A stretch of 38,140 nucleotides of DNA, taken from positions 1 to 38,140 of the forward strand of contig CAJBLF010000057.1 of NCBI GenBank assembly GCA_903953935.1, in the 5' to 3' direction. How positions within the stretch are numbered: position 1 is the first letter of the stretch; every line of letters begins with the position of its first letter. Below, piece after piece: positions 6,038 through 38,140 of the stretch. A program made the translations under genes and the position numbers. The DNA comes from an uncultured bacterium. Its GTDB lineage: Bacteria > Patescibacteriota > Gracilibacteria > Absconditabacterales > Absconditicoccaceae. Below the pieces are notes generated by a model that had not been told where the DNA came from, did not search any database, and saw only the letters and a program-made list of their open reading frames with translations.

Positions 6038-6814
6038 TTACCTTTTCTTGGTCTTCTTGCTGAAATCCAAGGACAGGGTAATGGTGTCGCTAATATGGAT
6101 TCCCATGGTGACAGAAAAGTTGGTAACCTTTTTTACATTGAAAGAGTTGAAACCGGCCAATGCTTTTTCTGCATATAGCCATATCTCTTCTTTGTTTTTC
6201 TGGCTGAATTGCTCTTGCATTGCCTGCATTACCTTATGATAGGTTAACAATTCGAGACCGCTTGTGGCGCCAGGTTTTTTGATATTACTTGCATTCATAA
6301 ATGCTTTGAAAGCAAGATATTCAACCAATTCGGAAATCCGGTTTTGGTCCATGAACTGACTCTTGATAAGAGGAAGTATCTTGGGGAGATGCTGGCCAGA
6401 AAGAGTAAATGCCAGAGTGATGGCAGGAACATCCTGTGTATCAGGCAGACTGATGTTGAGCATGACTGACAATTCGCCGGAGTTTTTCTTGGCAGTTGTT
6501 TTAAATCCCAGGATCATTTCAATACTGCATGCCGGTAATTCAGCGATAGGAGGAACTTCATCCTCGCCGAATATGTCTGCCAGATCTTTGTCTGCAAGAT
6601 TGAGATCCAAGCCACATTGGTCTGCTGTACCGGCCGCAAGGCCCAAAGATTTTAAGAGGGCATTAAGGTCTCCGCCAGCTTGAGCATTTTCATCAAGCAG
6701 TTGTTCCAAATTGATGTTTCCTTTTACTTGCAATTTGCCTGCCATAATAAAGGCCTTAGCAATACCGATAAACATCATCATTTTCATTCCCGTAACATTT
6801 CCAGGTGTAAACAT
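6038..6814 (-). CDS. Hypothetical protein, 258 aa, no UGA-Gly
   Basis: I do not recognise a family. The N terminus (MFTPGNVTGMKMMMFIGIAKAFIMAG) is hydrophobic and could be a membrane anchor or the start of a helical domain. The middle is acidic (about residues 65-90), and the C-terminal 70 residues mix helices with beta-type segments, ending KKTKKR. Three Met in a row and GGC/GGT glycine codons give it a composition unlike most neighbours, and no glycine uses UGA. The A-rich upstream leader (CCAAAAACAAAAAAAATA on the minus strand) resembles those of the 592 and 7080 genes. It is transcribed divergently from the 7080 gene, with a paired-palindrome element between them. Confidence 0.8.
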   Translation of the reverse strand: MFTPGNVTGMKMMMFIGIAKAFIMAGKLQVKGNINLEQLLDENAQAGGDLNALLKSLGLAAGTADQCGLDLNLADKDLADIFGEDEVPPIAELPACSIEMILGFKTTAKKNSGELSVMLNISLPDTQDVPAITLAFTLSGQHLPKILPLIKSQFMDQNRISELVEYLAFKAFMNASNIKKPGATSGLELLTYHKVMQAMQEQFSQKNKEEIWLYAEKALAGFNSFNVKKVTNFSVTMGIHISDTITLSLDFSKKTKKR

Positions 6815-6948: not shown

Positions 6949-7020
6949 CGCACCCGGGTGCAATAGTTAGAAAGTAGCTTCAGCACCCACAAACAAATAT
7001 CCGCACCCGGGTGCTAACTA
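6949..7020 (+). repeat. Paired-palindrome element, copy A
   Basis: Two identical 12-bp palindromes GCACCCGGGTGC (6950-6961 and 7003-7014) start 53 bp apart. After the first comes AATAGTTAGAAAGTAGCTT; after the second, TAACTAG, which can pair with the AGTTA side. An extra half-site, CAGCACCC, lies at 6981. The element ends about 5 bp before the -35 box of the 7080-gene promoter. The same arrangement recurs at 16260 and, inverted, at 37283. Confidence 0.85.
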
Positions 7021-7079: not shown

Positions 7080-7565
7080 ATGAAAAACATGAATACATTC
7101 CTCATGGAGACAGGAACCTTACGGACAAGTGATGGCGTAGGATTTAATGCAAGTCTTGAACTATCTATACAGGCAGCCAATTGTTCCACAATTGAATCGG
7201 ATGAAACGGTCCAGAAAATAATTTCTGAGGATCAAAACTACCTCAGGATCTTGTACCAGTTTCAGCACGAATTGCGCTTGTTTGCAATACAGCATCCGAT
7301 TAACGGAATACGACCACTCCTGGATGTCAAAATGAAGACCTTATTGGAAATGTTTGCAGAGATCTTTGAAGTAAAAATCATGAGGTCAGAACTGCAATCC
7401 GACTATTTCAGGCAAATGGCAGAAACACATCAGCCAAGACAATGTCAGAGGTGCTTCGAACCAGAAATAGTTCCGATTTCACCATTGTTTTCACCGACAT
7501 TTCCAAGGTTCTCAATGATATCGGGTTGCTCGTTTTTGCCGCTATTACCACCACTGTTTTTTTAG
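7080..7565 (+). CDS. Hypothetical protein, 161 aa, no UGA-Gly
   Basis: No recognised family. Residues 1-120 are mostly helical and polar (SDETVQKIISEDQNYLRILY, then a stretch around MKTLLEMFAEIFEVK). The last 35 residues are rich in Pro, Phe and Leu (PISPLFSPTFPRF, LPLLPPLFF), which is odd for a soluble protein. A second frame from 7442 reads more naturally there (DFTIVFTDISKVLNDIGLLVF), so a frameshift near 7430-7440 is possible; however, the terminator at 7602 fits the end of the listed frame. It has a clear promoter and an A-rich leader without Shine-Dalgarno sequence. Glycine codons are GGN only. Confidence 0.6.
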   Translation: MKNMNTFLMETGTLRTSDGVGFNASLELSIQAANCSTIESDETVQKIISEDQNYLRILYQFQHELRLFAIQHPINGIRPLLDVKMKTLLEMFAEIFEVKIMRSELQSDYFRQMAETHQPRQCQRCFEPEIVPISPLFSPTFPRFSMISGCSFLPLLPPLFF

Positions 7566-13952: not shown

Positions 13953-15590
13953 TTAAGTCAATACTCAAATACATTCGATATGATGCGTTTGGGGAAACAT
14001 ATCTACAGGCTGAATTTCTTTTATGGTAAATCATCATTGGATAAGCAATTCAATGTCTCTGACCATAGTCACCGGATTACATGAAATATACAACAACTTA
14101 AAATCTGATTCTCTTTTGAGATCGCAAATCATTTGAACAACATTTTTATGGAGGCCATCTCTAGGCGGATCAATAATAACAAGCCCAAGGTTATTGAGTT
14201 TGTCTTTGATTTCAGGTGTTTGGGTAAATGCTTTTTCAGCGGGATTAGCCAAGAACGTTACCTTGTTTTCCAATCCGTTGATTTTGGCGTTGTATCGTGC
14301 ATCCGTGATAGCTTCTTCTACAATTTCTATCCCGACAAGCTTTTCACCTTTTCCCATCTTCAAAAAAGTGATACCTATGCTTCCTGTTCCACAATAGAGA
14401 TCCAGCACAGTTCCTTCTATATATCACACCATATTCATTGCTTGATTGAAAAGTTGTTGTGCTCAGAGCGTATTCGTCTGAAAAAACGAAAAAGGAGAAA
14501 CCCTAAAAGATATCTCTGCTGAAGATCAAGAATCGTTTTGGTGATTTTCATTGTCGATGGGAAGCGGATTCTTCGAGGCGTTTTTGAAGATAAGTTTTTC
14601 AAAAATGTGTCATTCTCATCGAAATGTTTTGGTTTCACAATCAGATGATTTGATGATATCGGCCAAGCCGTTGTTATAGGTGATGACAAGTGTATTAACT
14701 TTCTCATGCAAGATCGTATCGTTCTTGATAGTTTCGAGAAAGGATTCCCATTGTGCTGTGGTGTTTGCTGTGAGATTATGGTCAGCAACTGCAAGATTGA
14801 TAAGCATCTGATCAGTGTTGGTACCTTCTCTGATAACGATATGTCTAAAAAATCCTTGATGCGTCATCTGATCATACGCGGGGAGTCCAGACGTTTTGCA
14901 GAGTTCCTTGATATGATGAAATAACATATTCGCTTCATCAGAGATGAGTGCACATGCGTCGATATCAACTATTTTACTAAATTCTCCTTGTTTATGGAAT
15001 CACACACTCCAGTCCGATAAGACGGTAACTTCTTTTTTCTTTCCCTCTTCCAATGGTTCCATTTTTCCATCTTTCAATGTATTAGTTATATATTTACCAA
15101 AACTAAACTCTATTTTGTTTCTATAGTTTCTTTCTTGTGGGGATCATATGATAGAGAGAATCTGGAGATCAGGTAATTTTCTTTTGATCTTGGTAAATGC
15201 ATCATTGACGATATCTTCCTTGAGTTGTAATTGGTTTTTGTAACTCAACATCTGCCATTTACATCCACCACATCCAACTTTATATAATTCAGGATTTAGA
15301 GTTCAGGGTTCAGAATTGTTAGATTTTTTATTTTCATTTTGCATTCAGGAAAAGAAGTGAGGACAAAAAACCTCTCCATCTACTATTTTGGGATCAAGTT
15401 CTTGAATACGAGTGATATGTGCTTCCACATAATCCTTTCTCTGTTTTACAATTCTCAAATCTACAATACTTCCAGGCAAAGCACCTCATTTGATCAGGAT
15501 TCTTTTTCCATCACTCATTCTTGCAAGTCCTATTCATCCATATCATATTTTATCTATCTTCACTCTTGTGAGTACTTTTGCCATAGGCAT
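13953..15590 (-). CDS. rlmD: 23S rRNA (uracil-C5)-methyltransferase, RlmD/TrmA family
   Basis: 545 residues. An N-terminal TRAM-like domain (MPMAKVLTRVKIDKIGYGGIGLAR) is followed by cysteines typical of the 4Fe-4S cluster (CPHF...GCGGC) and the C-terminal SAM domain: SFFQTNTLGAQQLF, VLDLYCGTGSIGI, IIDPPRDG and the catalytic-Cys motif YISCNP. The family methylates uridine C5 in 23S rRNA or tRNA; the TRAM plus Fe-S layout favours RlmD, but RlmCD or TrmA-type specificity cannot be excluded. Two low-complexity insertions are unusual: one of about 23 residues splits the cysteine cluster, and one of about 25 precedes SFFQTNT. The start is 11 bp after the adk stop, so the two form an operon. Confidence 0.9.
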
Positions 15591-15601: not shown

Positions 15602-16174
15602 TTAAAGTCCTAATTTACTCTTCAATATTGCTTGGATTTCTTCAATGGAACCGTTGGCATCTATCGTAATCACCTTACCTAAGGCTTCGAAATGTTTGAT
15701 AACATTCATGGTTTCGTGGATAAAAATATCTATCCTTTGTTCAATGACTTCTGGAGTATCATCAGTACGTCACTCGATTTGTGCTCTCTTCATCATTCTT
15801 TCAAGAGCTATATCCTTGGAAAGTTCGAGATGAACGATGACAAAATCTCTTTTCATTTGTTCCATTTTTTTGCTGAAATATTCAGCCTGTTCGATCATTC
15901 TAGGAAAGCCATCTACGATAAGACGCTTATTGTTTTGTTCAACTATTTTGAGGCTCGTATGTATGAGGTCGTGGGTGATAAAATTATCAATCATTTTTCA
16001 TGTGTTTACTATATTTCTGATATAATTACCGATCATATTGTCACTAGACATCAATGATCTGAGAGTTTGTCACATCTCGAAGTAGAGATGATTGGGTAAC
16101 TCTTTGAGGAGTACTTTCGCTTGCGTTCATTTACCGCATCCTTGGATGCCGAGGAAAACCAAATCCTTATCCAT
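15602..16174 (-). CDS. adk: Adenylate kinase
   Basis: 190 residues; interconverts ATP + AMP and 2 ADP. The P-loop GIQGCGKGTQ uses UGA for one of its glycines. Further motifs: FEMGQTLRS (AMP binding), LIVDGFPR and RAQIEWRTDDTPEVIEQRI around the short lid, with RTDD supplying catalytic Arg/Asp. The lid is of the short, zinc-free type. In many bacteria adk sits in the spc ribosomal operon upstream of infA; here it is downstream of the rpsI terminator with its own candidate promoter and a paired-palindrome element. Confidence 0.95.
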
Positions 16175-16259: not shown

Positions 16260-16331
16260 CGCACCCGGGTGCAATAGTTACAAAGTAACTTCATACCTGA
16301 AGTAACTACGTCTCCACCCGGGTGCGAACTA
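16260..16331 (+). repeat. Paired-palindrome element, copy B
   Basis: GCACCCGGGTGC at 16261-16272 and CCACCCGGGTGC at 16314-16325 start 53 bp apart, as in copy A. The segment after the first palindrome (AATAGTTACAAAGTAACTT) is nearly that of copy A, and the segment after the second is GAACTAC. An additional inverted repeat, AGTAACTTCA/TGAAGTAACT, fills the centre. It lies between the rpsI terminator and the adk promoter. Confidence 0.85.
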
Positions 16332-16399: not shown

Positions 16400-16822
16400 T
16401 TACCTCTTTGACCGTGTTGGTCCTTTTCTCGCCTTTTTCAAACCTGGTTTCTTTCTTTCCTTGATTCTAGGATCTCTTTTGAGTAGTCCATAAGGTTTCA
16501 AAGTAAGTCTGAGGTCTGGATTCCATTCAATCAATGCTCTTGCAAATCCCAACTTGATAGCGTCAGCTTGTCCTGATATTCCACCTCCACTGACGACAAT
16601 TTCAGCGTCAAATTTTTTGAGGTAATCAACACCTAGGGTATTGAGTGGAGAAAGAGCAGCCTCAAGAAGATAGATATTTCCTCCGAAATAATCTGCCAAC
16701 GGTTTTTGTGATCCGTTAGAAGTTTTGATGGTGAAGTTACCACCTCCATTTCCAAAAAGTTTAACAACAGCTGTTGTTTCTTTTCTTCTTCCTATAGCAT
16801 AGGTATATTCTTTGTTCGCCAT
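16400..16822 (-). CDS. rpsI: Ribosomal protein uS9
   Basis: 140 residues. Complete S9: YAIGRRKETTAVVKLF at the N terminus, GGGISGQADAIKLGFARALIE in the middle and the C-terminal tail RDPRIKERKKPGLKKARKGPTRSKR that reaches the P-site tRNA. Last gene of the minus-strand ribosomal block, 55 bp after rplM and followed by a terminator. All glycines here use GGN. Confidence 0.98.
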   Translation of the reverse strand: MANKEYTYAIGRRKETTAVVKLFGNGGGNFTIKTSNGSQKPLADYFGGNIYLLEAALSPLNTLGVDYLKKFDAEIVVSGGGISGQADAIKLGFARALIEWNPDLRLTLKPYGLLKRDPRIKERKKPGLKKARKGPTRSKR

Positions 16823-35051: not shown

Positions 35052-37181
35052 TTAAAAACCATCACTTCACGCATCACTTCAGCTATCTGAATCATAGCCA
35101 GGATCAGTATCGGTATCAGCATTGTCAGAATCATTATCATTAGAATCAGTATCGGGATCGGGATCGGTATTGTCAGCGTTATTATCATTGGAATCAGTAT
35201 CAGGATCATTGTTGTTGGTCTCAGAATCTTCATGTTCCAAAGTCTCTGATATGTCACCAGCGGTATTGTCAGTAGTTTCTATGAGATTATCCACTCAATA
35301 TGTAGTATCTGAATTTGACATAAGATCAAGCATGACTCAGAGCATCATATTTCATCATCGCATAAATAGCATATCCAATTGTCCATCAACCAAAAGATCT
35401 ATAAACATATTAAATGGCATTGCATCTGAAGTAAGATTGTTGTTTGCCAAATATCCTTGATAAGAATCAGAAAGTTCAGTTATAGACTGATTGATGTCTT
35501 TATTGTTTACTTTTCTTTTCTTGAGCATCTCAAAGAGAGAAAGTGCTACATTATTGAGATCTGTATTGTTTGAATAGTTTATATTTTTCGATTGTTCGTC
35601 TAATAGTGTATGATTTCTGATATAGAGATATTCTTTGATAATTTTCTCAGTTTCTTCAGGAGATTTTCATTTAGTGAGAGTAAATAATCTAAATGCTAGA
35701 TTATTTCAATCTGACGTATAAGAGAATTGTATGGTCTTGTGGTCATCCAATAAAGTATGGTTTCTGACATCAAGATATTCTTTGATAATTTTTTCAGTTT
35801 CTTCAGGAGATTTTCCTTGAGTGTTGCTGAATATATTAAGTGCAAGCATATTTAAATCCGAAGTATGTGTATAGGAAATATTTCCTGATCTACTTTGCAA
35901 TAGCTCGTGGTTTCTGATACTAAGATATTCATTAATGGTTTTTTCTATGTCTTCAGGAGATTTTCACTTGGTCATACTAAACAATCTAAACGATAATGTA
36001 TTCAAATCCGAAGTATGTGGATAGTAAATATTTCCTGATCTACTTTGCAATAACTCATGATTTCTGATATAGAGATATTCTTTGATAATTTTCTCAGTTT
36101 CTTCAGGAGATTTTCATTGAGTTAATCTGAAGATATTGAAGGTAATGTTATTCATGTCAGCATTTTTAGTATACGAAATATTCTCTGAGTTGTCTTTTAA
36201 TAGTTCATGATCTCTGATAGTAAAATATTCTTTGATGATGTTCTCAGTTTCTTCAGGAGATTTTCATTGAACCATCTTAAAGATGTTGAATGTAAGACTA
36301 TTCATATCCGCATTTTTAGAATACGAAATATTCGCTGAGTTGTCTTTCAATAGTTCATGATTTCTGATGGCAAGGTATTCATCGATAATTTTTTGGGCTT
36401 CTTCAGGAGATTTTCCTTGGGTCAATCTAAAAATATTCATTACCAGATTGTTCATGTCTGCATTCCTTGAATATGAAATATTTCTTGATTGTTCACTCAA
36501 TGATTCATTGTTTCTGATAGCAAGATACTCATTGATGATTTTTCTTTCTGGAAGAAGTTCTAATCATCATTCTGATATTTTATAGAGTCATCCATTGATC
36601 TCTGTATATGCTCATATTTTTCTATTGATCTCATCTAGTTCTCGCAACAAATCATGTTCTCTTTTTGCTATGGGAGTGATTTTTGAGGGAAGCTGCTGGA
36701 CAGTATTTGCTACGGTATATTCATCCAGATTTGCACCATTCATTCAATTTTTCTTTCAGAAAGTATCTATGTGTTTTTGTATTTTTTTTCTTCAAAATAT
36801 TTTTAATGGATTCTTTTTCATTGCCAACAATTTTTTATAGTGTTCAGCTCTTCTTAAGGTATTTTCTAATTTGATTTTTTCATCTTTTGTAGATCAGAGC
36901 TCTTGGGATAGATTTCATTTTTTTTCAAGTAAATCTTTTACCAATGACGGATCGAATTCATCAATCGATCATTCTTTTTTGAGTTGAACGATGTCTTCAT
37001 CAGATATTTCTGATGCTTCTTGATTTTCAAGATTTCTCAAGAAATCATATTTTTTTTCTAGTTTATCAACTACATCTTGCCTCAATTTTTCCTTAGCTTC
37101 TTTTCTAGTTTGAAGGGTAGTTTTTTTGTTATTGCTTGAAGAAAGTTTTTCTTCGTTGGAAGTTAATTTTGTTTTGACCAT
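35052..37181 (-). CDS. 50-residue tandem-repeat protein with Asp-rich tail
   Basis: 709 residues. Residues 1-225 are charged and coiled-coil-like (LEKKYDFLRNLENQEASEISDEDIV). From about 225 to 580 at least six copies of a 50-residue unit follow, with consensus RNHELL-x4-NISYxxxxDxNxL-x3-IF-x2-TxGKSPEExExIIxEYL. A hydrophobic stretch (DLLVDGQLDMLFMRGGNMMLGVMLDLM) comes next. The last 60 residues are almost only Asp, Asn, Ser and Thr (DPDTDSNDNNADNTD-type), resembling calcium-binding repeats. No signal peptide is visible. Its function is unknown; a large surface or interaction protein is possible. The equivalent GKSPEE glycine is GGA in two repeats and UGA in four. Confidence 0.88.
35640..36520 (-). 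repeat. Tandem 150-bp coding repeats
   Basis: The landmark CTTCAGGAGA-TTTTC recurs at 35654, 35801, 35951, 36101, 36251 and 36401, that is every 150 bp (147 once). It encodes the GKSPEE motif of the repeat protein. Confidence 0.92.
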
Positions 37182-37215
37182 AAGATGCTTTATGAATGTA
37201 AAAACCAATTAAGTA

Positions 37216-37282: not shown

Positions 37283-37353
37283 CGCACCCGGGTGCGAAAC
37301 TGAGTTTATATAGGTAAAAAGCTACTTTAGTAATTATTACACCCGGGTGCGAT
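37283..37353 (-). repeat. Paired-palindrome element, copy C
   Basis: GCACCCGGGTGC at 37284-37295 and ACACCCGGGTGC at 37339-37350 start 55 bp apart. Read on the minus strand, the segment after the first palindrome (AATAATTACTAAAGTAGCTT) matches that of copies A and B. It lies between the divergent promoters of the repeat protein and dnaK, 40-45 bp from each -35 box. Confidence 0.82.
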
Positions 37354-37395
37354 TGATAACCATAGCACCTAAGTAAAAATACTGCTCAAAATCTC

Positions 37396-37434
37396 TTGCA
37401 TTTTTTTGTAGCATGATTATACTATACGTGCTAC
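37396..37434 (+). promoter_or_regulatory. Candidate dnaK promoter with overlapping inverted repeat
   Basis: TTGCAT, 16 bp, TATACT (37418-37423). GTAGCATG (37408-37415) and CGTGCTAC (37427-37434) form an inverted repeat with one mismatch that encloses the -10 box, a plausible repressor site. No CIRCE element is present. Confidence 0.55.
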
Positions 37435-37493: not shown

Positions 37494-38140
37494 ATGGCAA
37501 AAATTATCGGAATCGATCTCGGAACAACCAACTCTTGTGTGTCCTACATGCTAGGTGACAAATCTGAAGTGATTGCAAACGCTGAAGGAAAAAGAACAAC
37601 TCCTTCTGTCGTATATATCAAGGGTGACGAATTGCTCGTCGGAGATCTTGCAAAAAGAAAGGCTATTTTGGAGCCTAAAAACGTTATCTACGAAGTGAAG
37701 AGATTCATTGGTAGAAAGTACAAAGAAGTTGTCGGTAAAGAAAATCTTCCCTACGAAATCAAAGAAGCAAAAGATGGAGGAGTGCTTATCGTCATCGATG
37801 GAAAAGAATATAAACCTGAACAAATTTCAGCGTTTATTCTTCAAAAACTCAAGGAAGATGCTGAGAAATTTCTCGGTACTCCTATCACGCAAGCAGTTAT
37901 CACAACGCCTGCATATTTCAATGATAGCCAAAGAAATGCAACCAAAGCTTCTGGTGAAATCGCTGGATTGAAAGTGGAAAGAATTATCAACGAACCAACA
38001 GCTGCTTCATTAGCCTATGGAGAAGGAAAAAACAAAGATGAAAAAATCGTCGTCTTTGATCTAGGATGAGGAACATTTGATGTTACTATTCTTGAAATCT
38101 GAGCTGATTGAACATTCCAAGTACTTTCGACATCAGGAGA
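37494..38140 (+). CDS. dnaK: Chaperone DnaK (Hsp70), 3' truncated by window edge
   Basis: The first 215 residues of the ATPase domain: [19 protein letters not shown] (phosphate 1 motif), [39 protein letters not shown] and [21 protein letters not shown] (phosphate 2 motif). The latter is where UGA-Gly codons first appear (38067, then 38100 and 38109); the upstream 190 residues use only GGN. DnaK folds and refolds proteins with DnaJ and GrpE; neither partner is in the window. A 70-bp leader separates the candidate -10 box from the ATG. Confidence 0.98.

Follow-up and report, generated by a model that had tools for sequence, protein, structure and literature searches.

Among described systems, the TIRYTs and TIRtrons (Di Nocera et al. 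2013, PMC3733652) are anatomically nearest to the elements reported here, and REPIN/RAYT systems are similar to them in working. TIRYTs are RAYT-like tyrosine transposases with inverted, partly double-palindromic, non-GTAG flanking repeats, which sometimes overlap the gene ends (5'ov/3'ov) and also occur as dispersed single, dimeric and grouped copies (PMC3733652). A GGGGWSAS motif is present in the majority of TIRYT repeat cases (PMC3733652, PMC6006769). REPIN/RAYT systems (PMC3116915) share many traits with our elements: inverted doublets of a short palindromic repeat, near-constant length, extragenic location, singlets besides doublets, clusters by the RAYT gene and a separate repeat class for each RAYT. 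The E. coli TnpA-REP and REP/BIME system (PDB 4er8; PMC8266576) shares the HUH and single-tyrosine enzyme family and BIME-like inverted pairs; its REPs are imperfect hairpins with a GTAG foot and a bulge, whereas ours are perfect palindromes with no foot. In the open-licence papers searched, we found no report of REP/RAYT repeats in SR1 or other Patescibacteria.

The window, the whole stretch of 38,140 nucleotides that was analysed, belongs to a genome (G000) of 1.297 Mb in 65 contigs that is 96% complete. TGA is apparently read as an amino acid in G000: translation table 4 opens long ORFs. For this reason, and because GTDB lists the relatives that share these elements as 'candidate division SR1' MAGs, we used NCBI code 25 (TGA=Gly) and took gene context from simple code-25 gene calling. 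The three elements of the window and the features near them are as follows.

6950..7014, + strand: element 1, palindromes 6950-6961 and 7003-7014, middle of 41 bp, with divergent genes 6038-6814(-) and 7080-7565(+) on either side.
15602..16174, - strand: adk (adenylate kinase; Pfam ADK, E 1.4e-26), neighbour of element 2.
16261..16325, + strand: element 2, palindromes 16261-16272 and 16314-16325 (1 mismatch), middle of 41 bp, with an rpsI-like gene, 16400-16822(-), on one side and adk on the other.
37284..37350, - strand (that on which the conserved middle reads): element 3, palindromes 37284-37295 and 37339-37350 (1 mismatch), middle of 43 bp, upstream of dnaK and of the divergent gene 35052-37208(-).
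37364..37386, + strand: inverted repeat of CIRCE-like type (AGCA-N15-TGCT), upstream of dnaK and distinct from element 3.
37410..37432, + strand: second CIRCE-like AGCA-N15-TGCT repeat, overlapping the putative dnaK -10 region.
37494..38140, + strand: 5' part of dnaK, assigned by its protein sequence, neighbour of element 3; the gene runs off the window.

A first-pass annotation had described three paired palindromes, and these are real. We counted six GCACCCGGGTGC-type sites at <=2 mismatches (6950, 7003, 16261, 16314, 37284 and 37339) against 0.11 expected by chance (100 dinucleotide shuffles, largest 1). Four of the six are exact, and those at 16314 (CCACCCGGGTGC) and 37339 (ACACCCGGGTGC) carry one mismatch each. 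Two such palindromes 53-55 bp apart make up each unit of 65-67 bp; the start-to-start distances of 53, 53 and 55 bp are as first reported. The conserved inner sequence noticed then is likewise genuine, except that copy 3 has it in opposite-strand orientation. The motif AAAGTAGCTT singled out there is present and belongs to a roughly dyad-symmetric centre. Genome-wide, G000 has 32 sites at <=1 mismatch, and the control, the reversed pattern, has a single one.

We gathered about 60 distinct pairs from G000-G005, that is, six of the nine species of the genus. Their spacing centres sharply on one value: 50 bp in 1 pair, 53 in 6, 54 in 6, 55 in 44, 56 in 2 and 57 in 1 (n=60). The typical unit is ~67 bp long and places perfect GC-rich palindromes around an AT-rich, roughly dyad-symmetric middle. 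The palindrome consensus is TTNNCACCCGGGTGNNAA, flanked on both sides by conserved AA/TT; its third position differs (CACCC, CTCCC or CGCCC), usually in step throughout an element or genome, and the palindromes by class are CACCCGGGTG, TCCCCGGGGA/CTCCCGGGAG and CGCCCGGGCG. The element centre is symmetric (AAAT.RGCT...AGCY.ATTT), and middles are otherwise variable. Palindromes also occur singly, and triple palindromes in G002 are compatible with one element lying beside or within another. One such run, upstream of dnaK in G002 (C60, L161:2382-2500), has three consecutive palindromes and two different middles; its shared central palindrome has CTCCC in the left half and GGGTG in the right. Elsewhere, in G000 (C32, L020:2942-3408), two single palindromes 455 bp apart each lie a few nucleotides past the TAA stop of a similar-looking coding sequence, possibly a duplicated gene plus palindrome.

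Beyond the genus, a class-wide search found convincing pairs only in G013, a complete genome of another genus; the other class-wide matches were mostly GC-rich sequence without the paired architecture. A pattern scan of GTDB showed SR1 genomes with the 53-56 spacing and a shared centre, and we took its matches in high-GC genomes to be mostly chance. The plasmid collection searched for the elements gave no match.

Nearly all pairs are extragenic. Among the 60, 37 lie between tandem genes, 12 between divergent and 6 between convergent genes, and 5 overlap an ORF call, the overlapped ORFs being the RAYT itself, short ORFs or probable N-terminal extensions (a 191-aa ORF in L129 is uncertain). The elements combine a constant architecture with an extragenic location, as the first-pass annotation's alternative of a mobile REP-like element would have it. 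A few exact CACCCGGGTG cores do lie inside G000 genes (L026:5944, L031:3061, L032:333/719 and L033:3008); they have no 55-bp partner, can be read as His/Ala-Pro-Gly(-Gly) codons, and are either coding coincidences or old insertions.

That mobile alternative gained further ground from RAYT genes embedded in the repeats of other species. The RAYT genes of G001 (C14:6007-6498) and G005 (C37:13534-14142) are framed by repeats on either side, and the 3' end of each coding sequence reads through a palindrome (SHPGA / SGHPGED). A family-wide Pfam search for Y1_Tnp matched G001 C14:6034-6390 (2.7e-8) and G005 C37:13711-14067 (9.6e-7), the same genes already seen between repeat copies. Their translations are 61% identical, and both contain PNHFH and YVENNPLKHG. 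Against NCBIfam NF047646 (REP_Tyr_transpos), the G001 and G005 proteins gave E values of 2.4e-19 and 6.4e-17. The four RAYTs score 69.7, 61.8, 54.2 and 67.9 bits (E 1e-14 to 1e-19), all below the curated 80-bit cut-off; NF047646 is, though sub-threshold, their sole strong family match. The best PDB match of RAYT P0001 is 4er8, E. coli TnpA-REP (E 1e-4), whose catalytic Y115 aligns to Tyr124 of P0001 by hand count on the alignment. The HUH motif (PNHFH) and this tyrosine are conserved in the RAYTs. An AlphaFold model of the RAYT (pLDDT 44) was too low in confidence and was left out of the argument.

Different RAYTs go with different palindromes. A second RAYT of G005, a paralogue, has its own class: palindromes of the TCCCCGGGG type bound it on either side, and a GCTCCCGGGAGC / GCTCCTGGGAGC pair lies downstream. 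The RAYT of G013 is bounded on one side by GCGCCCGGGCAC and on the other by a GTGCCCGGGCGC/GCGCCCGGGCGC pair 54 bp apart; the G013 genome holds 13 GCCCGGGC sites. The association of RAYT and palindrome therefore recurs in three genomes and three palindrome classes. These parallel enzyme/palindrome pairs are material for specificity tests.

The copies in G005 fit a mobile origin. This RAYT-bearing genome has dispersed copies, evidently recent, whose middles are 91-98% identical and whose flanks differ, although no clean empty-site pair was found; copies 14185/14992 have flanks in common and reflect a segmental duplication. In the other genomes, middle identity between copies is <=79%. We consider it likely that the elements are non-autonomous REPIN/TIR-like miniature repeats mobilised by a Y1 (HUH) tyrosine transposase of the RAYT type. 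If this enzyme works as in TnpA-REP and IS200/IS605, it would bind the palindromic ends when these fold up as single strands in the course of replication, cut the unit and copy it into other intergenic sites; the RAYT would be the maker of the copies, and the strand chemistry is likewise presumed. Most likely, judging from the sequences, this is mobile DNA of a known type that has taken a new form in a new host (SR1/Absconditabacteria), rather than a proven gene switch.

The form differs from that of each system compared. As in TIRYTs, the SR1 RAYTs are bounded by non-GTAG inverted repeats that are also found elsewhere in the genome. Unlike TIRYTs and TIRtrons, the SR1 elements have a paired 55-bp architecture and lack GGGGWSAS, which none of the palindrome classes read (CACCC, CTCCC and CGCCC) contains, and they occur in a phylum not described in PMC3733652. 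Compared with REPINs, they have no GTAG/CGTC tag, their 12-bp palindromes are perfect and loop-less, and the spacer shows no compensatory changes. GT[AG]G stands immediately before the palindrome in just 2 of 240 flanks and recurs only near the element centre. We did not file the elements as REPINs because both the foot tag and a compensatory spacer were tested for and not found. Copies number in the tens rather than the hundreds of REPINs (Bertels and Rainey 2011), and in the SR1 hosts TGA apparently encodes Gly.

Searches with Pfam Y1_Tnp and a two-sequence model did not find a RAYT in G000, G002, G003 or G006-G008, and G004 has just a Y1 transposase weakly resembling RAYT. With no RAYT detected in several element-bearing genomes, copy number is not a simple function of whether a RAYT is there. 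In G000, of which 4% is missing, neither Pfam (E<=0.001) nor the two-sequence model (E<=0.1) detected a RAYT, and for this reason its copies are probably immobile remnants, inherited vertically. Three situations occur within the genus: some species have the enzyme together with fresh copies, some have copies but no enzyme that could be detected, and in some no pairs were found. Streamlined SR1 genomes would be an extreme case for the question of why RAYT-repeat partnerships persist.

Could the elements have acquired a host role? RAYT-derived repeats might have come to serve chromosome organisation, supercoiling, transcript ends or the tuning of neighbours, a reading that is compatible with a RAYT origin and would explain why elements are retained after RAYT loss. 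Several orthologous loci carry the element in more than one species: dnaK, hflX, topA, the divergent T2SSE-type ATPase/LCP genes, a beta-helix gene and a 366-aa gene. Middles and flanks have diverged at these loci and the palindromes are nearly perfect, among species whose rpsI proteins are just ~74% identical (DnaK identity within the genus is 92-97%). The G000 palindromes, too, are kept perfect with no RAYT detected. This suggests retention longer than inert insertions would predict, and selection on the palindromes at shared loci is possible, as is a regulatory role at some of them. Against a general host role, each locus checked retains the element in some species only. The dnaK element is present in G000, G001, G002 and G004 (4/9 genomes) and missing there in the other species; in G001, G002 and G004 it holds the same place, 9-10 bp from CATAGCACC of the first CIRCE-like repeat. 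The adk element occurs in 1/9 genomes, G000, and none of the other eight genomes of the genus has a CCCGGG palindrome beside rpsI. Such a pattern fits old insertions that were inherited and lost. We regard an acquired host role as unlikely. The fuller proposal, that these are tagless RAYT-borne doublets of Absconditabacteria whose palindrome changes with the transposase and which, after its loss, persist at orthologous loci as DNA sites that the host uses, a domesticated system in a reduced genome of 1.3 Mb, seems to us rather doubtful.

The first-pass annotation had also proposed a paired operator whose two sites share one face of the helix. Here a homodimeric regulator would bind the TTNNCACCCGGGTGNNAA palindromes, bridge the two sites and control nearby genes. 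The symmetry of the site, the AA/TT conserved just outside the palindrome on both sides, the symmetric middles without base-pair covariation and the conservation at the orthologous loci named above would all suit such a regulator. However, the supposed five helical turns did not hold up: with 10.5 bp per turn, the modal 55 bp amounts to 5.2 turns. The neighbours have no single pathway in common. They include adenylate kinase, a PBP, a class I tRNA synthetase, thymidylate synthase (thyA), a beta-CASP nuclease, topoisomerase I (topA), HflX, DnaJ, a ComM-like ATPase, an LCP protein, a T2SSE-type ATPase, SecD and surface proteins. Downstream start codons lie at widely varying distances, from about 0 to >500 bp, and 17 of the 37 tandem copies lie <=15 nt from the upstream stop codon, besides the six between convergent genes. 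Recent dispersed copies and palindromes embedded in RAYT genes also speak against an operator, as does dnaK, which has its own CIRCE-like repeats in related genomes and the element in just four of nine. Hence, we consider a paired operator very improbable.

A single HrcA/CIRCE-type regulon was likewise set aside. The elements do resemble the CIRCE/HrcA operator in a half-site (TTAGCAC) and in their presence near dnaK, and HrcA exists in the genus. However, they lack the N9 spacer and stand at many non-chaperone genes; the neighbours (adk, PBP, class I tRNA synthetase, thyA, hflX, topA, secD, dnaJ, ComM-like) are unrelated, and the CIRCE-like repeats at dnaK are separate. These two repeats have similar sequence in related genomes, and HrcA (PF01628) was detected in 9/9 genomes of the genus.

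The covariation check proposed for the elements gave a divided answer. Palindrome ends co-vary (inner-inner 35/55 against 25.4 expected, p=0.0002, within genomes), but middle arms do not: per-position pairing equals the column-shuffle expectation, with no compensatory change, and total pairing is 529 against 562 in a partner-swapped control (p=0.99). A whole-unit RNA or ssDNA hairpin was accordingly rejected as the conserved structure. An RNA terminator or stabilising hairpin in transcripts is highly improbable: the two palindromes of a unit could pair as a 12-bp stem, their inner ends co-vary and many tandem copies hug a stop codon, but no consistent T tract forms part of the element, copies also lie between divergent genes, the middle arms lack compensatory change and palindromes occur singly. 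The missing T tract and the divergent copies also led us to reject a plain transcription terminator. Integron attC sites or gene cassettes, prompted by stop-adjacent copies and ~400-bp pairs, were dropped: no motif of attC type was observed, nothing but AT-rich DNA lies between the paired copies, and the linked enzyme is a Y1 transposase.

Two further repeats came to light in G005. One family, GTAGGGGCG...TCGCCCGGGCGT...CGCCCCTAC, is present in four copies (L221, L222, L223 and L224, each at ~position 800-870); one end carries GTAG and the opposite end CTAC, and the family resembles a 'double-foot' REP. A short AAGGACAAAAGTAGGACAA repeat often lies beside G005 elements (L142:13363-13380 and 14160-14177; left flanks of L135 and L132), and the related AGGACAAAAGT is present in G000 and G001.
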